37,201 nucleotides of DNA, from positions 1-37,201 of the forward strand of contig CALHDG010000079.1 in NCBI GenBank assembly GCA_938023075.1, written 5' to 3'. Position numbers and translations under genes: made by a program. Within the stretch, counting starts at the first letter, position 1, and every line of letters begins with the position of its first letter. Positions 14,883-34,961 of this stretch are shown piece by piece. Source of the DNA: an uncultured Chitinophagales bacterium (GTDB taxonomy: Bacteria; Bacteroidota; Bacteroidia; Chitinophagales; JAHDHT01). A model generated the notes under the pieces. That model was not told the DNA's origin. It saw nothing but the letters and a program-made list of their open reading frames with translations, and did no database searches.

Positions 14883-17849
14883 TTATCTTAATAAAGTAAT
14901 ATTCCCTTTAACCAATAACTCTTCATCGGTAAAGGTAATGCCAATGGCGTAATAAACATATACACCAATTTCTTGTGGGATGCCTCTAAACGTGCCATCC
15001 CAAATGGCGTTAATGTCAGTAGTTTCAAAAATCTTTTGCCCCCAACGGTTGTAAATTCTAAAGATGCCTAAATCTCTAATGCCTTTGGTCGTTAAACCAA
15101 TTGCATCATTAATATTATCTCCATTCGGCGTAAACGCATTGGGCACCCAAATGTGAAAAATTTGATTCACCTTTACTTGCAATGAATCTGATAAACGGCA
15201 ACCATTATCTGATTGGGCGGTCAGTATATACATGCCATCTCGAATAGGTTGAACCATGGGTTGTAATACAGTAGGCTCATCTAAAAACCCGTTTGGTGGC
15301 GACCAATCAAAAGCGGTGGCTGTTTGTTCAACACTTCCGTTAAAGGTAATAATATCGCCAATATCAATTTCAAAATCCGGACCAGCATCCACATCTGGTG
15401 CCGGTTGAATTTCAATGGTAACTGAGGCTACATCACTATAACATTCGTTCGAAACTTCTACTTCATAGGTTGTTGTTTCCCTAATGGTAGCTATAGGATT
15501 TGCGATACTTGGGTCGCTTAAACCTGTCTCAGGAGTCCACTGATAAAAAATACCTCCAGAGGCTTCTAATTGTGCCGGTTCTAATTCGCAAGCTATTAAA
15601 TCTTCATTAACCATCGCCTCAATGGGTTGAACTACTCTTAAATTAACCGAATCTTCATTATTACAACCAAATACATTTTCGGTTACTGTTAAATAGTAGG
15701 TCATATCTTCTGGTGGCGTAACTACCGGATTGGAAATATTCGCATTGCTAATAAATTGATCTGGACTCCAAATATATTCTATCGTATTAGTGTTTCCTGA
15801 TGCATCAACACCCATCCCATTTAGCTGATAAGAATCTCCCATACAGATAAAAACATCATCACCAGCATCAACAGTAGGGGCTGGTTGAACATTAACGGTA
15901 ACTTCACTGCTGCCTTCGCAACCATTTGGGTCAACTGCTAATACATTAAACGTAGTGGTAGCTGTTGGGCTTACCGTAGGGTTTTCTATGGCAGCATCAT
16001 CAATAATAGTTGAATCATTAGGCGACCATTCAAAACTTGCCGGTACATTCGCAGTTACCATTAACTGTACGGATTCATTTTCACAGATATCTTCATCCAT
16101 TCCAGCATCGGGCGTTAAGGTTTCATATAGGGTAACCGGCTGTATAATTTCTGCCTTACAACCTTCATCGCCGGTAACTTCTAAAAATACATTATAATCG
16201 CCGGCAACGGGAAAAGTATGTGTCGGTGACTGAACATCGTATGTGGCAATTTCAGTACTGTCGGTATTGTACAACACCCAATTCCACTCAATGATGTTAC
16301 CAATGTTTATATCCGATGCATCATCAAATTGAATCGGTTGTGCATCTAAACACAACATGGAGTTTTCGTAAGCTGAAACGGGGGTGGGTTTTACAAATAT
16401 TTCTTGACTGGTAGTTTCTAAGCATCCTAAATCGGTAGAAACAGTTAAAAATACCTGATAATTGCCTCCTTCTTCATACAAATGTGTTGGGTTTTGATCG
16501 TTGGATAAACCACCATCACCAAACTCCCACGACCAAGCTTGCACGGTGCCATAATCGGAGGTGCTAATATCGGTAAACTCAACTGGTACAATTGAACATT
16601 GAGATTCGTAATCAAACTGCGGAGCTAATTTTGGATATAAATTCAAAATGATTTCTGCGGTATCAGAACATTCTTCGTCTAAACTTCTACTCGCAATTAA
16701 AGTAATTTCATATCTACCGGTATCGGGGTATTCATAAATCGGATCTTTTTCGGTAGAAGTATCGTTTGCGCCGGGCGTTAAATCTCCTAAGTCCCAGAAA
16801 AATTCATCAGCACCTACACTTTCGTTAATAAATTGAACAGTAAAATCACCACAATCATTTAAAATAAAAAAACCATTGGCATCAATATCATCAGAATCAA
16901 TATCTGCAACTGCCACATCACATTCTTCTACATTAAATTGAAAATCTCGAATACTGGTGCTTAACAAGTTGCCATTTCTATATTCAGATACACAAATACC
17001 CACCACATACTGCCCGCGCTCGGTTGGAAAGCCTTTTAGTAAACCGGTTGCTGTGTCAATGGACATAATAGGGCTGCCACCTAATTGGTTTTGTTCGTTG
17101 TATATTCCCGTCCATACAATTTGATCGTATGGCGGGTTTGGTCCAAAATCTCCTGGAAGAATTGCTGGTCCGTAAATACTATTGTCAGGATTCTCGGGAT
17201 AATCAAAAGGAGTACATAGCTCATATACTAAACTATCGCCGTCTTCGTCGGAGGCTGAATGATCAAATTCAAATGGAAAACCGGCACAGATTATAATAGG
17301 TGGATAGTTGTTGTATGTTGGTGAACTATTGCAATCGGCTAAGTCACTCTCCGGTATTTCAATATAATAAGTATTACCTGCTAAAGCGGGCTCTTCAATG
17401 TTTAAAATAGTTCCGTTTCTACAACAACGCATATAAGTCAATGCATAGCCACCTGCCCTTGGCGGTAGGTTGATAACTTCGGAATAACCGGTAGATTGTT
17501 CTACGCAAACTTCTGGTATCGAATTTAAACATAAACCTTCGGTAATGGGCGGTACATTTTCCCTATCGGTATTTAAATTTAAGCTCAATAACAAGGTATC
17601 GATTGATCGCCCGTTGCCATTGTAAATAGTAATTTTGGCATTTTCATCAAAATCTGCACAGCTTGGCGAACCTGCTTCACATAAGCAATTCCGGTAAATC
17701 GTTAAGTTAATTTCGTAATCGTTATTGCCGAGGCAACGGTAAGATAAGTCGCCACCAATTAAGTGACCTGCATAAGTATATACACTTGCTGTAAAAAATA
17801 ATATGAAAACTATATACGTTCTAATCAAAATGGGTTTAGTTGTGTACAA
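14883..17849 (-). CDS. Large secreted PKD-domain protein with gliding-motility (T9SS type B) C-terminus
   Basis: This 988-residue exoprotein is predicted to cross the outer membrane through the type IX secretion system and attach to or leave the surface. A signal peptide covers residues ~8-27. The N-terminal ~300 residues form a cysteine-rich region starting HLIGGDLSYRC, typical of the N-terminal part of Bacteroidota PKD proteins. PKD-type folds follow (WSWEFGDGGLSNDQNPTHLY and two similar), then four Ig-like segments with the WSP motif. The C-terminus starting VPNAFTPNGDNIND and containing IYNRWGQKIFE is the type B sorting domain. The start is TTG, since no in-frame ATG exists between the upstream stop and the signal sequence. 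No partner gene is linked to it. Likely role: adhesion or gliding surface. Confidence 0.92.
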   Translation of the reverse strand: MYTTKPILIRTYIVFILFFTASVYTYAGHLIGGDLSYRCLGNNDYEINLTIYRNCLCEAGSPSCADFDENAKITIYNGNGRSIDTLLLSLNLNTDRENVPPITEGLCLNSIPEVCVEQSTGYSEVINLPPRAGGYALTYMRCCRNGTILNIEEPALAGNTYYIEIPESDLADCNSSPTYNNYPPIIICAGFPFEFDHSASDEDGDSLVYELCTPFDYPENPDNSIYGPAILPGDFGPNPPYDQIVWTGIYNEQNQLGGSPIMSIDTATGLLKGFPTERGQYVVGICVSEYRNGNLLSTSIRDFQFNVEECDVAVADIDSDDIDANGFFILNDCGDFTVQFINESVGADEFFWDLGDLTPGANDTSTEKDPIYEYPDTGRYEITLIASRSLDEECSDTAEIILNLYPKLAPQFDYESQCSIVPVEFTDISTSDYGTVQAWSWEFGDGGLSNDQNPTHLYEEGGNYQVFLTVSTDLGCLETTSQEIFVKPTPVSAYENSMLCLDAQPIQFDDASDINIGNIIEWNWVLYNTDSTEIATYDVQSPTHTFPVAGDYNVFLEVTGDEGCKAEIIQPVTLYETLTPDAGMDEDICENESVQLMVTANVPASFEWSPNDSTIIDDAAIENPTVSPTATTTFNVLAVDPNGCEGSSEVTVNVQPAPTVDAGDDVFICMGDSYQLNGMGVDASGNTNTIEYIWSPDQFISNANISNPVVTPPEDMTYYLTVTENVFGCNNEDSVNLRVVQPIEAMVNEDLIACELEPAQLEASGGIFYQWTPETGLSDPSIANPIATIRETTTYEVEVSNECYSDVASVTIEIQPAPDVDAGPDFEIDIGDIITFNGSVEQTATAFDWSPPNGFLDEPTVLQPMVQPIRDGMYILTAQSDNGCRLSDSLQVKVNQIFHIWVPNAFTPNGDNINDAIGLTTKGIRDLGIFRIYNRWGQKIFETTDINAIWDGTFRGIPQEIGVYVYYAIGITFTDEELLVKGNITLLR

Positions 17850-22943: not shown

Positions 22944-23213
22944 CTACTCCAACTTAACAAACCTGCCCGAAGCCACCGCAACCTCATCTGCTAAAAAGTG
23001 AATAATATAAGTGCCGGCTTGTAAACTACGCAAATCTATGTTTTCAAACAGTTGGCTTTTATTGGCTAAAACCAGTTGACCTTGCACATTATAAATACGA
23101 TAAAAATTATAAGCTTTGCCCGACAGCATTGGCAACAATACTTTCAACTCCTCTTTTACCGGGTTGGGGTAAAGGCTGATGGCTTTGTTGAGTAAAGTGT
23201 TTTCTTCTAATGC
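22944..23213 (-). pseudogene. Remnant: T9SS type A C-terminal sorting domain
   Basis: The reading frame is open from a TAG at 23214-23216 and encodes about 89 residues with no proper start codon. LYPNPVKEELKV, IYNVQGQLVLA, LRSLQAGTYIIHF and the C-terminal GRFVKLE are the four hallmarks of a Por_Secre_tail (T9SS type A) sorting domain. Only this terminal domain is left: the cargo part that should precede it is missing, and nothing protein-like continues upstream of the TAG. It is best read as the 3' stump of a deleted exoprotein gene. The flanking 216 bp up to the next gene contain no other coding signal. Confidence 0.75.
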
Positions 23214-23429: not shown

Positions 23430-26400
23430 GTGAAAATAAAGACAACGATTGTATGTATCCTCTCCCTATATGGCTTTTTATTTTGGGCATCGGCACAACC
23501 AAACCCTTTTGTAAACACCAATCCGCATCATCAGGCTTGTGTGCTTCCAACAGATATTGACGAAAACCTTTTAGCCGATATTGTTGAACAGAAATCGAAT
23601 GAACGAAACCGGCGAATAGGTCGAAACAGCTATACTATTCCAATAGTGTTTCATATTCTTCATAAAAATGGACTAGAGAATATTGAGGACGATCAAGTTT
23701 ATAGTGCACTTGACATCTTAAATCAAGATTTTAATTCGGGCAATGCCGATTTAGTGCAAGTGCCCGCTCCTTTTGCCGGTATTATTGGTAATGCTACTAT
23801 ACAATTTGCATTGGCTCAACAAGCACCTGACGGTTCGTGTACCAACGGTATTAATCGTTATTATTCCGGGTTCGATACAACCTATAATTATTTTTGGACG
23901 GATGACGGACAATATTACCTAAATACAATTAAAGCCGAACATTATTGGGATACTGATAAGTATTTAAATATATATGTGGTCAATCAATCTTATAATTCCG
24001 GTTTGGCATTTTTTCCTTATCAGGTTGAAGCCAAAGCCAATGCCGGCAAATGGTTAGATGGTATTATGATTAGACATTATAACCTTGGCAATATTGGTAC
24101 GGCAAAGCACAATGGTTTACCGCATGTTTTGTCGCACGAAGTTGGTCATTATTTAGATTTGATGCACATTTGGGGTAACTGGTTTTATCCCGGTTCTTCG
24201 CAGTTATCGTGGAAAGATGATTGCAATTATAAAGACGCTTTATGTCCTGATTTTTATTGCCATAGTGATGATATGGTAAACGATACGCCCAATACCGAAT
24301 ATCAATTTTCAGGTTGTATATACCAAAGCAATACCTGTGGGTCTGCCGATAATGCAACCAACATTATGGGTTATGGTTGCGAGTTAATGTTTACCGAAGG
24401 ACAAGTGAAACGGATGCATCGAACCTTAAATTCTACCATCGCCGATCGTAATAATATTTGGTCGCAAGCAAATTTGGATTATACCTTGCGCTGCAGCGGT
24501 ACTACAGCCAACATTAATTGTAAGAAACTGTATAGTTCATTTGTAAATAGATTTTCAATAGTTTCAAACAATACTGGATATATTTTACATTACTTAAATG
24601 GAATAAATAATAAAGTAAGATATAGAATTAACCACGGAGCTTGGGTAGAATTTCCAGTATCGGATAGTCACTTTTACACAGTAAACGAAATTTTGGCTTG
24701 TGCTACCTACGAATTTCAAATTAGCGAACAGTGCGATACTTTGTTTAGCCCCTGGTCGGCAAGTAAATTTTTTTATACCAATGATGCCTCACTACCTGAA
24801 GCCAATACAATCACTCCAATAAATTCAATGAATTGCTTTGAAACGGATACGATACAAGATTGTAGTCAGCTTCAGCTTAGTTTTCAAGTCAATCATCAAA
24901 CTCATATAGATACGGTAAATGGTTCAGCAGAAGCCATAGTTTTTGGAGGAACAAGCCCTTACGAAATTCAGTGGTCAACCGGAGCACAAAGTCCTTTAAT
25001 AACCGATTTGTCACCTGGCTATTATCATGTTTCCGTTTCCGATTCATTGGGTTGTATGCAAAAAGATAGTATCCAAATTTTGGGGGTACTATGTGATAAT
25101 TTTCAATTGAATGTCAACTCAACTAATGAAACCTATTTTAATGCCAACAACGGGACAGCCTTTGCTGAAATAAATGGTGGTTTACCACCTTATCATTATC
25201 AATGGTCTAATGGATATAATTTTGCATCTCAATATAGTCTTTCACCGGCAGTGTATAGTGTTATAGTTGAAGATAGACAAGGTTGTTCCGCCATCGATTC
25301 AATTCGCATTGAAGCAGTTAATTGCGATTCCTTTAATTTTGTGGTATCAACTACACATCAAAGTTATTATCAAGTAAATGATGGCGTGGCAACTGCCCAA
25401 GTGATAAATGGAACTCCACCATATACGTATTATTGGTCTACTGGAGATACACTTTCAAGCATTGAAAATGTTGCACCAGGAAGTTATAGTGTATCGATTG
25501 TTGATGCATTGGCATGTCAATTACGGCTTCCGTTTCAAATTGATTCTATTAACTGTTTAGATTTTAATATGGCTATTGAAACCTTAGATGCCAGCAATAC
25601 ACAAATTTCAGATGGCGCGGCATCGGTAACTTTAACCGGCGGAAACCCACCTTACCAATATTTTTGGTCAACCGGTGATACCATTTCTAGTTTAAATAAT
25701 TTGTCTACCGGCAACTATACTATCACCACTATCGATAGTCTCGGTTGTCAATTAACAGAGCAAATTTTGATCAACAGTTTTATTTGTGATTCCATTCATC
25801 TTGACTTTACTATATTTGATGAAACTTACTTTGAAGCAAATGATGGTAGTGCGATGGCACTGGCAACCGGTGGTACGGCACCCTATTCGTATACCTGGTC
25901 AACCGGCGATACTACGCAAACCATAAACAATTTAATGCCTGGCGTTTATTGGCTTAGCGTGCAAGATAGCCTGAATTGCGCAACTATTGATTCTCTTGTT
26001 ATTCAAGCAGTAGATTGCCAAAACTTAGCTGTGGATGTTAACCCAAGCAATGAAACTTATGTAGATGCGAACGATGGCAGCATTATGCTTGAAGTATCTG
26101 GTGGACATGAACCTTATGTTTACCAATGGTCAACCGGTGATACTACTGCTCATCTTTCAAACCTAACACCAGCAATTTATTATTTTACCTTAACGGATAG
26201 TTTAGGATGCTTTTTAAAAGATAGTATTACAATTAATGCCATTGATTGTAGCTCGCTTGAAGTTAGCCCTGAAGTAACTCATGAAACCTATAACCATGCA
26301 AATGATGGAATGATCCTGTTGAATATAAGCGGTGGGCAGGTTCCTTTTCACTATCAATGGTCTACTAGTGATACCACTACCCAACTTACCAACTTAGCTC

Positions 26401-27146
26401 CTGCCACTTACAGTTTTCAAATTACAGACCATGTGGGTTGTACGCTTGTTGATAGTATTGAAGTTAGAAGTGTTGAATGTAGCATGCTTTCAGTAGAGGT
26501 TATTCAAAAAGAGGTGACTTGTGCCGGAGATGATGACGGTTCACTTTTTATAGCTGGCATAATGCACGTTAATGAACCTTATAAAATCAATTGGTCAAAT
26601 GGAGTGTCATCTGATATAAACGATAATTTAGTTGCTGGAACTTATACCTTAGTTTTAACAGATGATATTGGTTGCCGTTTTGAAGCAGCTTACGAAGTTA
26701 AAGAAGGAACAGCCATTGCTGCGAATACCGTCATTACTCCGGCAAGCAGCTTTCAAACACCAGATGCATCCATTGATTTAAGCGTTACTAGCGGTACACC
26801 ACCTTATCAATATTATTGGTCAAATGGTACAATAGAAGAAGATGTATACGATATTTTTGCCGGCAATTATTGGCTTAGTATAACCGATAGTTTAAACTGT
26901 AATGTAACATTAACAAATATAGAGGTGGGCATTGCTGAAAATTGCCCGTATAACGTAGTTGAAACACCAAGTGCTTTTGCACAAGATAATGTGGTGCGGG
27001 CTCAACATATGATTCAGTCAAACAGAAGAATACATCAGGGAGATAGCTTACACTATACTGCCGGAAATTCTATTAACCTTGAAAATGATTTTCAAATTTT
27101 AAAAGGTGCTACTTTCGAAGCCAAGATTGATGATTGCGGAGAATAA
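23430..27146 (+). CDS. Secreted M43-like (pappalysin) metalloprotease with nine SprB repeats
   Basis: This 1,238-residue exoprotein has a signal peptide at residues 1-23. The zinc-protease domain carries HEVGHYLDLMH, with zinc ligands His236, His240 and His246. Asp replaces the usual Gly of HExxHxxGxxH at position 243. The Met-turn is in ATNIMGYG. Residues ~350-450 form an Fn3-like segment. From ~490 to ~1165 come nine SprB-type repeats, each with PY-x-Y-x-WSTGD and a YxVxVxDxxGC end; the central ones have a period of 77 residues (231 bp). The last ~65 residues resemble a 3-coathanger stack domain (AGNSINLENDFQILKGA) ending in IDDCGE. There is no classical T9SS type A or B tail. The start is GTG: no in-frame ATG occurs between the upstream TGA and the signal peptide. 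It stands alone and converges with the lipoprotein gene. Confidence 0.9.
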   Translation: MKIKTTIVCILSLYGFLFWASAQPNPFVNTNPHHQACVLPTDIDENLLADIVEQKSNERNRRIGRNSYTIPIVFHILHKNGLENIEDDQVYSALDILNQDFNSGNADLVQVPAPFAGIIGNATIQFALAQQAPDGSCTNGINRYYSGFDTTYNYFWTDDGQYYLNTIKAEHYWDTDKYLNIYVVNQSYNSGLAFFPYQVEAKANAGKWLDGIMIRHYNLGNIGTAKHNGLPHVLSHEVGHYLDLMHIWGNWFYPGSSQLSWKDDCNYKDALCPDFYCHSDDMVNDTPNTEYQFSGCIYQSNTCGSADNATNIMGYGCELMFTEGQVKRMHRTLNSTIADRNNIWSQANLDYTLRCSGTTANINCKKLYSSFVNRFSIVSNNTGYILHYLNGINNKVRYRINHGAWVEFPVSDSHFYTVNEILACATYEFQISEQCDTLFSPWSASKFFYTNDASLPEANTITPINSMNCFETDTIQDCSQLQLSFQVNHQTHIDTVNGSAEAIVFGGTSPYEIQWSTGAQSPLITDLSPGYYHVSVSDSLGCMQKDSIQILGVLCDNFQLNVNSTNETYFNANNGTAFAEINGGLPPYHYQWSNGYNFASQYSLSPAVYSVIVEDRQGCSAIDSIRIEAVNCDSFNFVVSTTHQSYYQVNDGVATAQVINGTPPYTYYWSTGDTLSSIENVAPGSYSVSIVDALACQLRLPFQIDSINCLDFNMAIETLDASNTQISDGAASVTLTGGNPPYQYFWSTGDTISSLNNLSTGNYTITTIDSLGCQLTEQILINSFICDSIHLDFTIFDETYFEANDGSAMALATGGTAPYSYTWSTGDTTQTINNLMPGVYWLSVQDSLNCATIDSLVIQAVDCQNLAVDVNPSNETYVDANDGSIMLEVSGGHEPYVYQWSTGDTTAHLSNLTPAIYYFTLTDSLGCFLKDSITINAIDCSSLEVSPEVTHETYNHANDGMILLNISGGQVPFHYQWSTSDTTTQLTNLAPATYSFQITDHVGCTLVDSIEVRSVECSMLSVEVIQKEVTCAGDDDGSLFIAGIMHVNEPYKINWSNGVSSDINDNLVAGTYTLVLTDDIGCRFEAAYEVKEGTAIAANTVITPASSFQTPDASIDLSVTSGTPPYQYYWSNGTIEEDVYDIFAGNYWLSITDSLNCNVTLTNIEVGIAENCPYNVVETPSAFAQDNVVRAQHMIQSNRRIHQGDSLHYTAGNSINLENDFQILKGATFEAKIDDCGE

Positions 27147-27164
27147 CAGTACTAACAAACTAGT

Positions 27165-27191
27165 AATTATTAATTAATGAAATTAATAATT
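27165..27191. terminator. Possible bidirectional AT-only hairpin between convergent genes
   Basis: aattattaatt (27165-27175) and aattaataatt (27181-27191) pair perfectly around a 5-nt loop in the 44-bp gap between convergent genes. The stem lacks GC pairs and would be weak, so this is tentative. Confidence 0.3.
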
Positions 27192-27829
27192 TATTGATTT
27201 TCTTCAAAGTGCATAATTTTGTTGGTTAAGGCTCCATTGGAGTAAAAATATTCTTTACCGAGTACGCCTTCTTCATCCCAAACATAAATTTTACCGTGAA
27301 TATTGTCATTTTTAAAATCGCGATGGGTCCATTTTTTTCCGTTTTCATACCACGAAAGCCATGCTCCATTTTTTGTTCCCATTATCCAATGGTGTTCTCG
27401 TTGCTTTTGCCCGCTTTCATAATATTCTATATTAATGCCATCTTGCTTGCCTTGTTTATAAAAGCCTTCTTGCTGAATTTTTCCATTGCCATACCAAGTG
27501 GCATAGTAGCCATCTTTAATACCATTTTTATACCCATTTAAGGTAAAAGGATTACCATTACTCATTTTGCTAATGGCATAACCGGTAAATGGTTCACCTT
27601 TATGATATTTCAAATTGTTTTCGGTGGTTAAATCTTTTAACTCTATTTCTGAGCCGTTCACCTTATGACGTTGTACTTTGTCTGCCGGTGTACCTGCAAT
27701 AACATATGCCTTTTCGGCAGGGGAAGCGTTTGGATTAACAACCGGGGTTTTTGACTTTTGTTCGGTAGTTGCTGTACAACCGGCAAGCCATAAATAAAAG
27801 CAACTCAACAGGATAAAACAATATTTCAT
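27191..27829 (-). CDS. YwqK-like (MORN-variant repeat) lipoprotein
   Basis: This 212-residue lipoprotein has a signal sequence ending in the lipobox LAGC (Cys18). From about residue 85 it carries successive MORN-variant repeats of 20-23 residues: NGYKNGIKDGYYATWYGNG, KQGKQDGINIEYYESGQ, MGTKNGAWLSWYENGK and NDNIHGKIYVWDEEG. These are the repeats of the YwqK family, often labelled 'toxin-antitoxin system antitoxin' in databases. No toxin gene is adjacent here, so that label should not be taken as function. It is more likely a surface- or periplasm-anchored repeat protein. It ends in a short gap facing the M43 protease gene. Confidence 0.85.
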   Translation of the reverse strand: MKYCFILLSCFYLWLAGCTATTEQKSKTPVVNPNASPAEKAYVIAGTPADKVQRHKVNGSEIELKDLTTENNLKYHKGEPFTGYAISKMSNGNPFTLNGYKNGIKDGYYATWYGNGKIQQEGFYKQGKQDGINIEYYESGQKQREHHWIMGTKNGAWLSWYENGKKWTHRDFKNDNIHGKIYVWDEEGVLGKEYFYSNGALTNKIMHFEENQ

Positions 27830-27948
27830 TCTTGTATAATTTTATGATTCAATATCGTCTAATTTTAGATTTAATGAATAATCAAAATTTAATAGTACAA
27901 TAATATTACAACCTGTTGAATAATAAAAATTTTAAGATGCCTATATGC

Positions 27949-27984
27949 AAAAAAAACCGCCTTTCTATTTAAAGAAAGGCGGTT
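27949..27984 (-). terminator. Strong rho-independent terminator (minus strand)
   Basis: An 11-bp stem, aaccgcctttc (27955-27965) with gaaaggcggtt (27974-27984), is followed in the minus direction by eight T (27956-27949). It most likely ends the DUF547 gene transcript after it passes through the foldback element. Confidence 0.85.
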
Positions 27985-27985
27985 A

Positions 27986-28144
27986 AGAACGTGTATGGAA
28001 TAAGTTCGTAAAATTAGGCTAGCTTTTTTTGTTATTAGTTTTGGCTTTGAAAAAGGAGTTATGTTAATATAGTGACTGCTTTCAAAGTCGAAAACAAGGG
28101 CAAAAGAAGCAGCATTAATTACGAAGTTGTTTCATACACGTTCC
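27986..28144. mobile_element. 159-bp foldback element, MITE-like
   Basis: Left arm gaacgtgtatggaataag-ttcgtaa and right arm ttacgaa-gttgtttcatacacgttc are complementary along about 25 positions. Complementarity continues inward: gttttggctttgaaa of the left half matches the reverse complement of tttcaaagtcgaaaac. TTA flanks both ends as a possible 3-bp target duplication. It holds no ORF. A non-autonomous transposon derivative or a long structured transcript are both possible. It sits between the DUF547 stop codon and its terminator. Confidence 0.55.
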
Positions 28145-28167
28145 TTAGTCTATCTATAGTTGCAATT

Positions 28168-28953
28168 TTACTCTTCGGCAGGTTGTTGTTCACTTTCCAA
28201 TTTGCGCTTTATTCCATCGCGGTCTGTTAAAGTTTTGGCTGAGTTAATTTGCCAATTGTAAGTATAATAATCTATTGTTTTATCTTCTTCAATGGGTAAA
28301 GCCCGATAGCTGTTAATAAATTTAACCAAACTTTGGCCTGATAGCACAAAATCTTGCTCATACCATTTAAAAATTTCTGATAACAACACCTTATCTTTAG
28401 TAAGCCTTATAAATTTAGGATTATTTAAAGTTTTTCGGGTTTGAATGTCTAATTGTTTCTCTAAAATTTCTGACCGGTATGCATTATTAGAAAGTTTTGG
28501 GCAACCAATAGCGGCACATACTAACACAAAATGCAAACGAGCATCCGGGTGATTTTTGTATAACATTTCTTTTTCCAAATGATTTAAGGTTACTTTTTGC
28601 CCAGATACCGTAAAAGTTTTTACATCAAAAAAGCCTTTTACATGTAATGGCGACTCAACCGGAAAAACATCAATTACATTTTTTATCACTAAAATATTGT
28701 AAGCATTAATCAAAAACGCTTTTTGTTCTTCTTCAGATAATTCACTTAATTGAATAGTAGCAATTTGTTGTAATAATGCATTCAATTTGGCGGGTTTTTC
28801 TTTAATGCTTTTATATTTTACATAGCCGCGGTTTACATTTTCTTTCAAAAATGCATCAATCTGGTTAGTAAAAGTAACTGTTGCAGATGCCTGTATACTA
28901 AAGCAGATCAATACTAAAAAAAAACCGCTAATTAAAGATTTTAATGTTTTCAT
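28168..28953 (-). CDS. DUF547 domain-containing secreted protein
   Basis: This 261-residue protein has a signal peptide (residues 1-24, ending QASA). DUF547 follows with its familiar motifs: VKYKSIKEKPAKLN, the helix AFLINAYNILVIKNV, the VSGQKVTLNHLEKEML segment, and VCAAIGCPKLSN with the conserved cysteine. DUF547 has a structure reminiscent of papain-like or transglutaminase folds and its role is unknown. Length and motif order are complete. The C-terminal tail (GIKRKLESEQQPAEE) is hydrophilic. The gene is divergent from the large CotH protein (161-bp gap) and appears monocistronic, ending with the strong hairpin near 27955-27984. Confidence 0.9.
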   Translation of the reverse strand: MKTLKSLISGFFLVLICFSIQASATVTFTNQIDAFLKENVNRGYVKYKSIKEKPAKLNALLQQIATIQLSELSEEEQKAFLINAYNILVIKNVIDVFPVESPLHVKGFFDVKTFTVSGQKVTLNHLEKEMLYKNHPDARLHFVLVCAAIGCPKLSNNAYRSEILEKQLDIQTRKTLNNPKFIRLTKDKVLLSEIFKWYEQDFVLSGQSLVKFINSYRALPIEEDKTIDYYTYNWQINSAKTLTDRDGIKRKLESEQQPAEE

Positions 28954-29114
28954 TTTTACTGATTTATTTAAATTTGATGTAAGATACCTGCATAGGTTTA
29001 AATAGTAAACTATTTTGGTTTGATTTTTGTTAACTCATTGTTAACAGTGGAGCACAGTTAACCACAACTAATTAACCCATATTTTGACGAAAACAAATAA
29101 AATTTTACCTCATA

Positions 29115-32100
29115 ATGAACCACTTCAATCACTTCATAGCCTACCTATGTATAATAATTACTACATGTTTGCTATTTATATCAAGTAATTCTTTTAGTCA
29201 ATCAACTATATGTATTCGTATTAACAATGGTATTGACGATGTAGAAGAAAATTTAACCGACGGATTTATAGATACCAATAGCTCTGATATTGAGTTAACG
29301 TATAACAAGACATTTAATCAAATGTCAGGCTTTCGGTTTAACAATATAAATATTCCACAAGGAGCAACTATAACGAATGCACAAATTCAATTTGGAACAG
29401 ATGAAGTGCAAACCGAAGCAGTCAATTTAACTATTCAGGGAGAAAATATTGATGATGCACCACCCTTTAACAATATAGCCTATAATTTATCTTCCCGAAG
29501 TAAAACAAATAGCTCGGTAGCATGGAGTCCTGATCCGTGGAACAATATTGGAGATGCTGGTGCCGCTCAAAAGACACCAGATATCTCATCCATCATTACA
29601 GAAATTGTTAGTCGCCCAGGGTTCAAAAAGGGAAATTCTATTGTAATTGCCGTATCAAGTTCGGATGTAGGAGTAAGAACAGCAGAATCTTATGAAGGTT
29701 TACCTTCACTGGCTGCCGAGCTTTGTGTAACTTTTTGGCCCTGCGGAGTTGGTCTACCAGATAGTGATAACGATGGGGTTTGCAATAATGAAGATGTTTG
29801 CAATGGATTTAACGATAATGTTGATGTAGATAACGATGGTATTCCTGATGGATGTGATCAATGTATTGACACCAACAATAACAACATTTGCGATGAAGCC
29901 GATCCTGCTTTTCTCAAAAAAATTGTGATTAATGAAATTAACTATCGCAATACGCTAGTTGATAAAAATACAGATTTTATTGAGTTGTATAATGCAGATG
30001 ATACCGCAGTTGATTTAAGTGGCTGGGCTTTAACATCGGGGGTGCATTATAAATTTCCTGCCGAAACAACTTTAAATGCCGGTGCTTACTTAGTTATAGC
30101 ACAAAACCCTGCAGATGTTGAAGAACAGTTTACTATTAGTGGTGTGCTTGGTCCTTATACCGGTAGCCTGAATGCTAAAAGTGATGAGGTTGTTTTAAAA
30201 GATACTTTTTTTAATACTATAGATAAAGTAGATTATGATAGTTGGAAAGAGTGGCCCTCGGTTAGATACGATGACTACGAAACTAGCGGATTAGATGGAG
30301 ATGGAAACACCATTACCATCAACAATAAAGTCGCCAAATCTATTCAAAAAATGCACCCCGATTTACCAGGGAGACACGGCGGAAGTTGGCAAGGCTTTAC
30401 CCCAACGCCTCAGGTAAAAAATACTGGAGTATTTCAATCAAACCCAAGTGATATTCCAGTAATTAACCGGGTTTCTAGAAGCCCAAATACAACCCTAAGC
30501 GGAAGAGACGTAAGAATTATTACCGAAATTGAAAATCTGGAAAATCTTTCAGGTTCAGTATCTGTAAAGTTAGAGTATCAAACGATGACTGCTGGCAATT
30601 ACATTAGAAAAGATAGTTCAGCATATAGTAGTCTGGCAAATTGGGCAGTGATTAACATGCTAGATGATGGTGCCGGTATTGACAGCGTTGCGAATAACGG
30701 TGTGTATTCGGCTATAATTCCTGCTAATGTTCAACAACATAGAAAGCTAGTTCGGTATCGTATTCGGATAGAAACCTCTAATGGTTTTAATGAACTTTTT
30801 CCAAGACAAGAGCATAACGAGAGTAACTATGCCTATTATGTGTATAATGGGCAAAATAGATTTAATGGATATTCCTTTAACCAATTATCCGAATTACAAT
30901 CCATTCAATTAATTGCTACACAAAATCATGTAAACGAATATATTGCAAGTACCAGTTACAATGCCAATGAATATCCGGGTGAAGGTACTTTAGTTTATAA
31001 TGGCAAAGTATATGACCATATTGGATTTAGAGCAAGGGGGAAAGGCTCCAGACATTTTAGGTTAAAGAAAAATTTAAAATTTGACTTAAACCCTGAACAT
31101 ACCATTAAAGTAGAAGATGATTGGGGAAAAGCCTATGATGAAGAACGAGGAAAACTAAGTTTATCAGGTACTTGGGTAAACGATGCGAATTCACACGGTT
31201 TAACAGAATCATTAATTTATAAGTTAGCAGAATTAACTGGCGGCTTCAACAAATTGGCAGATTATTGTCAACTTCGTATAGTTGATAGCAGTACGGAGAA
31301 TGGAAATGATGGAGATTTTTGGGGCATATATTTAATATTAGAAGATTGGGGTGGGGATATGTTAGCCGAACACGACCTGCCTGATGGTAACATTTACAGT
31401 TATAAAGGATGGTTATTGGCGCACGAAGGTGACGATGGTCCCTATGGAGCAAACAATAGTATTTATTCATCGTGGAATAGTAATCTTGGAAATTCACAAG
31501 ATGGCTGTTCGAGTTGCGCAGTACCTACACAGTCACAAAGTTTTTATCAAAACAATATTCATTTTGATTACTACTTTGCCGATTGGGTACTGAATGAAAT
31601 AGTTGGAAATGGAGAAACGAACTATCCAGGCCAGCATAGTTACCGGGAATACTACGATCCGGAAGCGCAACGCTGGGTTGTACAATGTGGAGACTATGAT
31701 GAAAATTTTGGAATGCCACATAGCGGTAAAGTAGTCTATAACCGGTCAGAATCTCTAAATTCAAGAGATGCTCGGCAACCTTTAGAGCCACAAGTTTCAA
31801 GCTATAACTCCATTTTAATTGATTTTAAAAATCATTTAACCAACACTTTAGACTTACTGTTTAATACTGAACAAGAGAATCATTTGATTAAGTCTGAAAC
31901 AGCCAAAATTTATAATTCCAATGGAACAAACTGGACAGATTTAGACTACAGCCGTTGGTCTAACCAATTAGATGGGCACGGTGAACAGATGAGCTATTCT
32001 AATTACCAAAGTGATGTAATTAACTGGTATGATACCTGGTTTTCAGCAAGAGAAAGTTATTTAAGAAATACTGCTTTTAGTGATGATAGTATACCCAATA

Positions 32101-34961
32101 GACCGACCATTACTTATACCGGAGCATCTACTAAAGCTTTAGATCAACTATCATTTAGTTGTTCCGCTTTTTCTGATCCTCAAGGTGCCAATACCTTTGC
32201 TGCACAAGAATGGCGAATTGGGGAATGGTCAAACCCAAACAATCCTATATATTTACTAAACGAAGAGCCCAAATATGAAATTGAAACAGTTTGGACAAGC
32301 GGCGAACTCAGTAACGCTCAAAGTAATATAACCATACCGGCAGAAGCTAATTTAAAAGAAGGTAGAACTTATAAAGCAAGAGTACGCTATAAAGATAATA
32401 CCGGAAGATGGAGCCGTTGGTCTTCTTCTTCAACCGTGGTGCCAACTGCCGCAAGTAATCCAGCTAACTATAATTTAGTTATTAATGAAGTGATGTATCA
32501 TCCTGAAGAAAACTGTGGAGTTGAATTTATTGAATTATATAATAACAGCAATAGCACTATTAGTTTAAATAATTTCAAATTTACTAATGGGGTAGATTAC
32601 CACTTTCCAGCCAATGCAACTATAGCTGCTAATGATTATTTAGTGATTACGAAAGATAGTGTAGAGTTTATATGTAAATATGGTTTTGCCCCTTTTGGTG
32701 ATTATAAAAATGGTTTGTCTAATGGAGGTGAAAAAATAGTATTGAAGGGACCTTATAGAGTAGTGGTTGATTCTTTAATATATGATGATAGGCAACCCTG
32801 GCCCGAAGAGGCTGATGGAATGGGCGCCTCCTTATCATTAATAAATGCAGATTATGATAACTTATTAGCATCCAGTTGGACAGCCTCAGTAGATAAATGT
32901 GGTACGCCGGGAGCTAAAAATAATTTGTGCAGACCCATCATAAACAGTCCTATTGTGGCAAATGTATCTTGTGCGGGTGCGTCAGATGGTTTTATATCAA
33001 ACGATATTTTAGGTGGCACAGCTCCGCTAGCTTATGCCTGGAGTAATGGAGAAACAGGTGCTTCTATTAGCAATATATCAGCCGGTACTTATACCGTTAT
33101 TGTTACCGATGCTTTTCAATGTCAATTTGACTATGAATTTCAGGTTTCAGAACCTACTCAGTTAACGTTTAGCATTAATAGTACAAACGAAACCTATTTT
33201 CAGTTAGCTGATGGAACTGCTGAGGCATCAGTGTCAGGTGGAACGCCTCCCTATTCTTATTTATGGTCAGATGGTAGTACTACGCCGTCAATAAGTAGTT
33301 TAATGCCAGGCTCATACAGTCTCACAGTTACGGATGCAAACTATTGTTCACTTACACAAAATGTAGTGATTGAGGCAATTGATTGCAGCACTTTAGCTTT
33401 GTCAATAAATTCAACCGATGAAAGTTTTTTCCAAGCGAACGATGCTACCGCTACGGCTGTGGTAAGTGGAGGTGTTAGCCCGTACAACTATAGTTGGTCT
33501 AATGGAGCTACGGTTGCAAGCCTTGTTAATTTAACACCAGGAGCATATACCGTTACAGTAATTGATGCCTTGGGATGTAATACCACGCAAACCGCTAATG
33601 TTTCAGCAGTTAATTGCGATAATTTTACGGCTACCATTACTGCTACCAATGAAAGTTATTATCAAACCAATGATGGTAGTGTTGCAGTTACACCAACAGG
33701 CGGCGCAAGTCCCTATTCCTTCAATTGGTCTAATGGGGCAACAACTAGCAGCATAACTAATTTAATACCAAACAGCTATACCATTGAAGTGGTAGATGCC
33801 TTAGGTTGTACTTTTACAGAAACGGTCAATATTGCGGCAATTGATTGCATCGATATTGCTACTGCAATTAGCTCAACTGATGAGAGTTATTTTAATACAA
33901 ACGACGGTACAGCTATGGCAATAGTAAATAATGGTGTTGAACCCTATGCTTACAATTGGTCAAATGGGTCAAGAGTGGCTAACCTAACCAACTTAACACC
34001 AGGCTCATATACCGTAACGGTTACCGATGCAGTGGGTTGTACTTCAATTGAAAGTGTAAATATTGTTGGGATAAGCTGTGGCACTTTTGGAACTATTGTT
34101 AACACTACAGACGAAAGCTACCATCAGGCAAACAACGGTATCGCCGAAGTTGTTATTAGCAATGGAGTTGCTCCAATAAATTATAACTGGTCTAATGGAG
34201 ATACGTCTCATATGGCGGTTAATTTAGCACCAGGCAGCTATTCGGTTGCTATTACCGATGCAGTAGGTTGTGTGTCGTCTCGTTCTATAACTATTAATGC
34301 AATTGATTGTAGCAATTATACAGTTTCTACCAGTAAAACAGATGAAACTGCTGTTGAAGCAAATGATGGAACAGCCAGTGTAAGTGTATTTTCAGGTGTT
34401 ACGCCGTTTACTTATCTTTGGTCTAATGGTGCAACCACCGCATCTGTAGTTAATTTGGCTCCAGATTTTTATACCGTAGAAGTTACCGATGCAGTAGGTT
34501 GTTCATTAACAGAAAACATAGCTATTAATCCTCTACTTTGTAATGGCTTCAATATTAGTATTGATTATGAGCCAGAAAGCAGCTATCAAGCCAATGATGC
34601 AAAAGCTGAGGCATACATTACAGGTGGTTTATCGCCATATACCTATCTATGGTCTAATGGAGCAACTACACCTTCCATTAGTAATTTAATACCAGCTGAT
34701 TACACAGTAGCAATTACTGATAGTTTAGGTTGTATGGATATGCGAAGCATTGCATTAGGGTGTCCAGATACTTTTATTAACATGGAAAACTTTATTTTGC
34801 ATTCCGGTACAGAACAGGTTTCCGATTATATTTTATCCAATGGAATTGTTAGACAAGACAGTGTGGTTATTTATAAAGCCGGTAACTTAATTGAACTACA
34901 AAATGATTTTGAGGTATTACCAGGTGCCAACTTCGAAGCGGATATAGAAGATTGTCAGTAG
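29115..34961 (+). CDS. Giant secreted CotH/lamin-tail protein with eight SprB repeats
   Basis: This 1,948-residue exoprotein is organised as a signal peptide (1-29), a DNRLRE/CBM-like beta domain (~30-205) and thrombospondin type 3 calcium repeats (DSDNDGVCNNEDVC, ~213-265). Next come lamin-tail domain 1 (IVINEINYRN, ~270-400) and a CotH kinase-like domain (~580-960; GFRARGKGSRHFRLKKN and QCGDYDENFGMP at ~856). An Fn3-like segment (~993-1110) and lamin-tail domain 2 (LVINEVMYHPEENCGVEFIE, ~1117-1240) follow. Eight SprB repeats (WSNGATTxS type, ~1299-1880) lead to a C-terminal 3-coathanger-like domain (AGNLIELQNDFEVLPGA) ending IEDCQ. CotH domains are atypical kinases in spore coats and some secreted proteins; activity here is unproven. 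It has no classical T9SS tail. The start is ATG, followed at once by the signal sequence. Confidence 0.93.
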   Translation: MNHFNHFIAYLCIIITTCLLFISSNSFSQSTICIRINNGIDDVEENLTDGFIDTNSSDIELTYNKTFNQMSGFRFNNINIPQGATITNAQIQFGTDEVQTEAVNLTIQGENIDDAPPFNNIAYNLSSRSKTNSSVAWSPDPWNNIGDAGAAQKTPDISSIITEIVSRPGFKKGNSIVIAVSSSDVGVRTAESYEGLPSLAAELCVTFWPCGVGLPDSDNDGVCNNEDVCNGFNDNVDVDNDGIPDGCDQCIDTNNNNICDEADPAFLKKIVINEINYRNTLVDKNTDFIELYNADDTAVDLSGWALTSGVHYKFPAETTLNAGAYLVIAQNPADVEEQFTISGVLGPYTGSLNAKSDEVVLKDTFFNTIDKVDYDSWKEWPSVRYDDYETSGLDGDGNTITINNKVAKSIQKMHPDLPGRHGGSWQGFTPTPQVKNTGVFQSNPSDIPVINRVSRSPNTTLSGRDVRIITEIENLENLSGSVSVKLEYQTMTAGNYIRKDSSAYSSLANWAVINMLDDGAGIDSVANNGVYSAIIPANVQQHRKLVRYRIRIETSNGFNELFPRQEHNESNYAYYVYNGQNRFNGYSFNQLSELQSIQLIATQNHVNEYIASTSYNANEYPGEGTLVYNGKVYDHIGFRARGKGSRHFRLKKNLKFDLNPEHTIKVEDDWGKAYDEERGKLSLSGTWVNDANSHGLTESLIYKLAELTGGFNKLADYCQLRIVDSSTENGNDGDFWGIYLILEDWGGDMLAEHDLPDGNIYSYKGWLLAHEGDDGPYGANNSIYSSWNSNLGNSQDGCSSCAVPTQSQSFYQNNIHFDYYFADWVLNEIVGNGETNYPGQHSYREYYDPEAQRWVVQCGDYDENFGMPHSGKVVYNRSESLNSRDARQPLEPQVSSYNSILIDFKNHLTNTLDLLFNTEQENHLIKSETAKIYNSNGTNWTDLDYSRWSNQLDGHGEQMSYSNYQSDVINWYDTWFSARESYLRNTAFSDDSIPNRPTITYTGASTKALDQLSFSCSAFSDPQGANTFAAQEWRIGEWSNPNNPIYLLNEEPKYEIETVWTSGELSNAQSNITIPAEANLKEGRTYKARVRYKDNTGRWSRWSSSSTVVPTAASNPANYNLVINEVMYHPEENCGVEFIELYNNSNSTISLNNFKFTNGVDYHFPANATIAANDYLVITKDSVEFICKYGFAPFGDYKNGLSNGGEKIVLKGPYRVVVDSLIYDDRQPWPEEADGMGASLSLINADYDNLLASSWTASVDKCGTPGAKNNLCRPIINSPIVANVSCAGASDGFISNDILGGTAPLAYAWSNGETGASISNISAGTYTVIVTDAFQCQFDYEFQVSEPTQLTFSINSTNETYFQLADGTAEASVSGGTPPYSYLWSDGSTTPSISSLMPGSYSLTVTDANYCSLTQNVVIEAIDCSTLALSINSTDESFFQANDATATAVVSGGVSPYNYSWSNGATVASLVNLTPGAYTVTVIDALGCNTTQTANVSAVNCDNFTATITATNESYYQTNDGSVAVTPTGGASPYSFNWSNGATTSSITNLIPNSYTIEVVDALGCTFTETVNIAAIDCIDIATAISSTDESYFNTNDGTAMAIVNNGVEPYAYNWSNGSRVANLTNLTPGSYTVTVTDAVGCTSIESVNIVGISCGTFGTIVNTTDESYHQANNGIAEVVISNGVAPINYNWSNGDTSHMAVNLAPGSYSVAITDAVGCVSSRSITINAIDCSNYTVSTSKTDETAVEANDGTASVSVFSGVTPFTYLWSNGATTASVVNLAPDFYTVEVTDAVGCSLTENIAINPLLCNGFNISIDYEPESSYQANDAKAEAYITGGLSPYTYLWSNGATTPSISNLIPADYTVAITDSLGCMDMRSIALGCPDTFINMENFILHSGTEQVSDYILSNGIVRQDSVVIYKAGNLIELQNDFEVLPGANFEADIEDCQ

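Follow-up and report, generated by a model that had tools for sequence, protein, structure and literature searches.

The window, the whole stretch of 37,201 nucleotides that was analysed, comes from an uncultured Chitinophagales bacterium and contains two large open reading frames (ORFs) on the forward strand, P0001 and P0002, both of which proved to be real and end in a related sequence block. Their features, and a type B tail that served for comparison, are the following:

14886-15146, - strand: type B tail (TIGR04131) of P0004, 40.9 bits, the comparison case in the window
23430-27146, + strand: P0001, ORF of 1238 aa, with a signal peptide (heuristic), an M43 metalloprotease (23934-24428), eight SprB repeat matches (~24912-26831) and a terminal GCX module
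26943-26945, + strand: upstream Cys of the P0001 module, outside the NCBI model; putative disulfide partner of the Cys at 27135-27137
27000-27137, + strand: GCX_COOH (NF045639) match in P0001, residues 1191-1236 of 1238
27135-27137, + strand: terminal Cys codon of P0001, followed by Gly-Glu-stop (DDCGE-stop)
29115-34961, + strand: P0002, ORF of 1948 aa, with a signal peptide (by eye; missed by the heuristic), two LTD matches (best at 29919-30236), eight SprB repeat matches (~32952-34667) and a terminal GCX module
34761-34763, + strand: upstream Cys of the P0002 module; putative disulfide partner of the Cys at 34953-34955
34815-34958, + strand: GCX_COOH (NF045639) match in P0002, residues 1901-1948 of 1948
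34953-34955, + strand: terminal Cys codon of P0002, followed by Gln-stop (EDCQ-stop)

The C-terminus of P0001 reads ...AGNSINLENDFQILKGATFEAKIDDCGE and that of P0002 reads ...AGNLIELQNDFEVLPGANFEADIEDCQ. Local alignment of the two end blocks (71 and 74 residues) with BLOSUM62 resulted in a score of 124, which was reached by none of 2000 shuffles (best 46). Both blocks belong to the NCBI family NF045639, with 43.1 bits for P0001 and 44.2 bits for P0002 at a curated cut-off of 26. The family name, GCX_COOH, presumably points to a Gly-Cys-X C-terminus, and both proteins have the match at their C-terminus with a Cys followed by about one residue. The shared block, which a first-pass annotation of the DNA had reported under the label "3-coathanger stack", was thus confirmed together with its label. 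Its length had been put at ~60 residues; the conserved unit is longer than that and starts at a Cys 18-19 residues upstream of the NCBI match. The annotation was also right that neither protein has a recognisable type A or type B sorting tail: the models of the type A, B and C tails (TIGR04183, TIGR04131 and NF033708, with cut-offs of 23, 35 and 40 bits) found nothing in either protein at E ≤ 10, a setting at which the HMMER filters still discard most matches above E ~0.1. Just upstream of P0001, an orphan type A tail of 43.4 bits was present on the reverse strand (22953-23174) in an 89-residue frame that has no passenger; it resembles the remnant of a T9SS gene.

The structure of the end block was predicted in two AlphaFold runs, in which the P0002 and P0001 ends were accompanied by seven and five further sequences, respectively. 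Both runs yielded the same six short strands, with a best-of-five pLDDT of 89.0 for the P0002 end and 84.6 for the P0001 end; poorer models were obtained as well, four of five in the first run (46.5-73.4) and two in the second (67.8 and 41.0). The module is probably a compact unit of ~70 residues with the predicted fold of a short beta-helix, which fits the NCBI nickname. Solved relatives were sought by sequence and none was clear (six chains at E 0.14 to 0.68), and Foldseek returned no match at E ≤ 0.001 in the PDB and viral libraries. The best VIA-align Z-scores, 4.9 with the first model and 4.2 with the second, were both to a carboxysome CcmM chain with an rmsd over 8. The likenesses found by VIA-align are weak and are consistent with the predicted beta-helix.

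The window's own genome (G000; 6.1 Mb, 288 contigs, 97% complete) contained 106 NF045639 matches at E ≤ 0.001, and all 106 were taken with their frames and read to the stop codon. Ninety-four copies were terminal, with the stop seen within 25 residues, three were followed by a type A tail according to a local HMM that was built from 20 confirmed tails, and nine were neither. Two of the three tails (L009 and L030) exceeded the TIGR04183 cut-off, while the third (L114) had no TIGR04183 match and was called by the local HMM alone at 25.0 bits. Two of the nine remaining copies (L021 and L056, in frames L208 and L213) lay directly behind a signal peptide. The last Cys of the 94 terminal copies was followed by one residue in 60 cases and by two in 19, so that the ending first described from the window, Asp-Cys plus one or two residues, held in its spacing for 79 copies but not in its Asp, which preceded the Cys in only 19 of the 79; Gly was commoner (23), and Ser (11), Ala (10) and other residues (16) made up the rest. 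Some terminal copies extended 12-24 residues beyond the last Cys.

The same genome encodes the translocon protein SprA and has other tails in number, at least 150 of type A and 15 of type B over the cut-off. Only two of the 150 listed type A ORFs, themselves drawn from 387 first-look candidates, also contained the module. A crude signal-peptide heuristic was passed by 74 of 100 module ORFs, compared with three of 227 internal control windows, and many of the 26 misses, P0002 among them, look like signal peptides by eye.

Several individual ORFs of this genome had unusual features. A SprB-repeat ORF of 599 aa (L206, contig C98) was absent from the NF045639 matches, and by eye its C-terminal end looks like a degraded GCX module. 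The module-tailed L086 (contig C68) starts, again by eye, with a twin-arginine-like SRRGFL stretch and not with a plain Sec signal. Similar module-tailed ends, on which the NF045639 match stops early (model positions 36-45), were present in L089, L097, L103, L106, L107, L111 and L113; the usual upstream Cys was absent from L097, L103 and L113, and L089, L103, L106, L111 and L113 were located on short contigs that also bear type A ORFs.

The passenger proteins of the window's genome occurred with more than one kind of end. The 26 M43 matches were divided over GCX (6), type A (12), IPTL-CTERM (4) and unassigned ends (4). The type A cases comprised eight in listed type A ORFs and four by hmmscan, with L193 barely over the cut-off (23.6 bits against 23); among the unassigned cases, L189 and L196 had no tail by hmmscan, L190 runs off its contig and L197 lay outside the hmmscan set. 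The 37 SprB-repeat ORFs ended in GCX (21), type A (6) or type B (1), and nine were not assigned. When the first 520 residues were compared with Pfam in 92 terminal-module proteins, metalloproteases (Reprolysin_5, 11; Peptidase_M4, 7; M43, 6; the three sets overlap), CHB_HEX_C_1 (9), Fn3_assoc (9), CotH (8), LTD (6) and LRR_14 (5) were matched most often. The IPTL-CTERM ends of the four M43 proteases L191, L192, L194 and L198 (contigs C106, C137, C12 and C5) matched TIGR04174 at 22.9-25.7 bits (cut-off 20.5) and represent another kind of sorting end beside the T9SS tails in this genome; a search for IPTL-CTERM together with Bacteroid- found no open-access paper.

Related passengers were also found with and without a type A tail. 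In L048 and L016 of the window's genome, a signal peptide, the M43 domain, the module and the stop codon follow each other. Both align over nearly the whole passenger (42% and 39% identity) to L220 from another genome (G445), in which the module is followed by a linker and a type A tail of 34.9 bits. According to PMC10202324, the sortase PorU cleaves CTDs. If this holds for L220, its mature form would stop a short way behind the module, much like L048. More broadly, 36 of 155 terminal-module proteins had a homologue with the module plus a type A tail in another genome, with tails called by the local HMM and homologues by blastp at E ≤ 1e-10 over any shared part. A second pair, the terminal L279 (G343) and L261 from the same genus (G331), is 45% identical; it was rejected as a case of tail loss, as the tail of L261 had no TIGR04183 match at E ≤ 0.01 and was seen by the local HMM only (24.1 bits), and the M43 trio was used for the comparison instead.

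The distribution of the module was compared with that of SprA, which was taken as the marker for T9SS. In a sample of 247 genomes of the phylum, a module match was found in 31 (over the cut-off in 26) and SprA in 190. SprA was present in 29 of the 31 module-bearing genomes; the exceptions, G165 and G217, had weak, partial matches that cover model positions 4-32 only. As 17 of the 20 listed SprA-less genomes (37 more lie beyond the list) belong to a single family (f18), the association of SprA with the module is partly one of descent. Among 298 genomes of the order, 112 contained the module and 293 SprA. The five SprA-less genomes include a single module bearer, G526, which consists of one contig and is 99% complete; its copy (L245) stands at the C-terminus of a subtilase, has no terminal Cys and is perhaps a relic.

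The sequence behind the module in other genomes was examined in several sets of loci. Forty phylum-sample loci, from 29 genomes other than G000 and G190, were classified by the local HMM as type A (18), terminal (3) or other (19). As 14 of the tails on which this HMM was trained come from these very loci, NCBIfam is the fairer judge; in the 29 loci that were scanned with it, TIGR04183 was over the cut-off in 14 and under it in two. These 29 were chosen with tails in view; among the other 11, one copy was terminal and most of the rest were long frames without a stop or matches of low score. RHS or YD-repeat matches were present in five of the 29. In L117, L120, L128, L131 and L135, from other genomes, the module lies inside or beside RHS/YD-repeat proteins and has no Cys pair. 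One locus each from 27 other genomes of the order, the best-scoring of the 112 module-bearing ones, had a TIGR04183 type A tail in 18 cases (E ≤ 0.001), and the local HMM called 19 type A, six terminal and two other; the own genome, G158 (terminal) and G037 (a 20.0-bit tail) were left out of this set as they were already in other sets.

Genomes that are rich in the module were sampled by their best-scoring loci, and the local HMM placed them in different states. In the family f54, where G331, G343 and G349 have 23 copies each, a type A tail followed 23 of 27 sampled copies: 15 of 15 in G331, five in G343 (with one terminal) and three in G349 (with two terminal and one other), the latter two genomes being represented by six loci each. 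All sampled copies were terminal in G391 (15 of 15, from 69 copies) and G485 (6 of 6, from 10). Five of six from the 27 copies of G412 were terminal and one type A (L283), and four of six from the 13 copies of G388 were terminal and two other. G190, in which 26 copies were scored out of 67 candidates, had 22 terminal, one type A and three other copies. NCBIfam was run on seven tails from G331, G343, G349 and G412; five were over the TIGR04183 cut-off, L283 was under it (21.3 bits) and L261 had no match. The G190 tail (L152) was type A by the local HMM alone, with no TIGR04183 match, and the TIGR04183 matches of L119 and L178 were under the cut-off. The highest copy numbers counted, 106 in G000 and 69 in G391, both occurred in terminal lineages. 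In these module-rich genomes, whether the sampled copies are terminal or tailed is set by lineage. Outside the window's genome the module is frequently internal, and a small number of copies stand at the N-terminus, directly after a signal peptide. The genome collection yielded relatives in five Saprospiraceae MAGs and one Chitinophagales MAG, with the module N-terminal in one (L181), and no relative of the module could be confirmed in the viral contig collection.

These counts lend only partial support to what the first-pass annotation had proposed for the domain, namely that it may serve as another secretion or anchoring signal; the annotation had asked for a check of whether it is always C-terminal, excludes the standard tails and is restricted to T9SS genomes. 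The terminal position describes 94 of the 106 copies in the window's genome but not the few N-terminal copies or the frequent internal ones of other genomes; likewise, the exclusion of standard tails is nearly complete in that genome (2 of 150 listed type A ORFs) and breaks down in 18 of 27 order loci and 14 of 29 scanned phylum loci, which are type A. Nearly all carriers have SprA, except for G526 with its C-terminal copy and G165 and G217 with their weak partial matches. Because a standard tail often follows the module, the claim of a general signal fails the annotation's own test; the module may have a signal role in the terminal lineages, that of the window included, and the Cys pair makes an anchor unlikely.

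Alignment of 41 terminal copies from the window's genome showed three invariant columns: the upstream Cys, a Phe and the last Cys. The 41 were hand-picked from 59 candidates; since L034, L082 and others among the omitted copies have no Cys at one or both positions, the invariance of the cysteines is partly by choice, which does not apply to the counts below. Relative to the point where the NCBI match begins, the stretch -40 to -8 contained a Cys in 89 of the 94 terminal copies, compared with 42 of 93, 43 of 93, 38 of 93 and 52 of 89 in control windows further upstream. In this genome alone, the association of the two Cys at -40 to -8 was not significant (p = 0.07 for 104 loci; p = 0.18 for 95 terminal loci under a slightly different definition), because almost every copy has both; the association rests on the comparison between genomes and on a narrower window of -30 to -12. 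Among the 40 loci of other genomes, 14 had both Cys, five the last only, none the upstream only and 21 neither. Four of the 252 loci, with an upstream part that was short or contained N, were set aside; over the other 248, among them the weak ones of G165 and G217, the corresponding numbers were 200, 17, 8 and 23, and a majority count per genome gave 35, 5, 0 and 17. A Cys was scored as the last Cys if it stood within the final 3 residues of the match or up to 8 residues beyond it. Since the loci are related, Fisher values overstate the significance. Terminal loci had both Cys in 134 of 153 cases, type A-tailed loci in 49 of 61 and the others in 17 of 34; the remaining 17 of this last group had neither. 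In seven GCX-rich genomes, the pair was found in 59 of 60 loci, terminal and tailed alike. From these sequence patterns, the upstream and the last Cys most likely form a disulfide that would staple the helix shut; that the pair is kept with or without a tail fits a structural disulfide and not a C-terminal anchor.

We lean towards the reading that the module is a disulfide-stapled short beta-helix of the mature exoprotein. As it is terminal in some lineages and followed by a standard export tail in others, it is more likely a part of the mature protein than a general export signal. The module would belong to the finished exoprotein, with its N-terminal Cys and last Cys stapling the predicted beta-helix, and the last Cys would be no site of lipid or sortase attachment. 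The host proteins, among them secreted-type proteases, SprB-repeat giants and LRR proteins, appear to carry export signals and nearly always occur in T9SS genomes. In the tailed lineages, the type A tail would be the export signal, and after processing the protein would stop a short way behind the module. In the lineage of the window and a few others, the gene itself ends at the module, and export there may also proceed by T9SS; after export, the terminal module probably acts as a stable cap or a surface-docking piece.

In the window's genome, the module almost never occurs together with a listed type A tail, and the two have passengers in common; this would suit a replacement signal no less than a passive module. 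We also considered that, in the terminal lineages (G000, G190, G391, G485 and most of the sampled G412 copies), the module is a fourth class of T9SS signal, which may have originated when the type A tail behind it was lost; we hold this to be the main alternative, tentative and less probable than a structural part of the mature protein. The terminal position of 94 of 106 copies in G000, 22 of 26 sampled in G190 and 15 of 15 sampled in G391 speaks for it, as do the rarity of the module among listed type A ORFs (2 of 150), the M43 and SprB-repeat passengers that bear different ends in one genome, the presence of SprA in 29 of 31 module-bearing phylum genomes (weak partial matches in the other two) and the occurrence of the two highest copy numbers (106 and 69) in terminal lineages. 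On the other hand, the module is abundant in the f54 genomes too, where 23 of 27 sampled copies precede a type A tail according to the local HMM; internal and N-terminal copies are known; G526 has a C-terminal copy and no detectable SprA; and neither P0001 nor P0002 has a match to a type A, B or C model. Under the same possible but doubtful scenario, a "type D" T9SS signal would have emerged from a mature pre-tail domain by loss of the type A tail, with the replacement still under way and both states seen on related proteins.

Two further explanations appear much less probable. That the proteins make no use of T9SS, stay periplasmic or exit otherwise, and carry the module as a generic fold stabilizer, would agree with the C-terminal copy on the subtilase of the nearly complete, single-contig G526, in which SprA was not detected, and with the copies inside or beside RHS/YD-repeat proteins. 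We regard it as improbable, given that the G526 copy has no terminal Cys and is perhaps a relic, that SprA is present in 293 of 298 order genomes, with G526 the sole module bearer among the five that lack it, and that the passengers look like exoproteins. The least probable explanation is that the protein is anchored through its terminal Cys, by a covalent bond to a lipid or glycan or of a sortase-like kind. It draws on the spacing of the last Cys, with one or two residues behind it in 79 of the 94 terminal copies of G000, but the same Cys is kept before a type A tail and travels with the upstream Cys, and some terminal copies run 12-24 residues past it; anchoring through the last Cys was rejected as the leading idea, as this Cys is kept internally and co-occurs with the upstream one.

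Nearly a hundred predicted exported proteins of the window's genome end in the module. If it is a T9SS signal, a secretome prediction based solely on type A and B tails overlooks a large part of the cargo in the terminal lineages; if it is a module of the mature protein, a name assigned automatically from a C-terminal model should not be taken as evidence of a sorting signal. The relatives with and without a tail make the choice between signal and mature module directly testable.

The domain is already catalogued as NF045639, a model of 49 positions that falls short of the upstream Cys, and the module is non-terminal in many genomes. No open-access paper was found for "3-coathanger", "GCX_COOH", "coathanger stack" or "NF045639", and broader searches listed none on the module, with subscription papers and preprints outside their scope. 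Among solved structures, the bactofilin 6ria (Z 3.5, rmsd 2.3 over 54 residues; Z 2.8 with the second model) and the short beta-helix 2n3d (Z 3.3, rmsd 2.3 over 53 residues) show a weak likeness to the predicted module, that of bactofilin being the most plausible; the Z-scores are well below 8, a sequence relation was not found, and the shared arrangement shows no shared function. T9SS CTDs of types A, B and C are described in sections of PMC10202324. Types B (TIGR04131) and C (NF033708, ChiA) are alternative C-terminal classes, and P0001 and P0002 match neither. The type A CTD (TIGR04183/PF18962) likewise has no sequence match in the two proteins, and it differs from the predicted beta-helix in that a reference title within PMC10202324 calls the type A export signal a beta-sandwich. 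In other respects the type A CTD resembles the module, as both are C-terminal, occur in many copies per genome and have M43 and SprB-repeat passengers in common, and in other genomes the type A CTD often stands behind the module.
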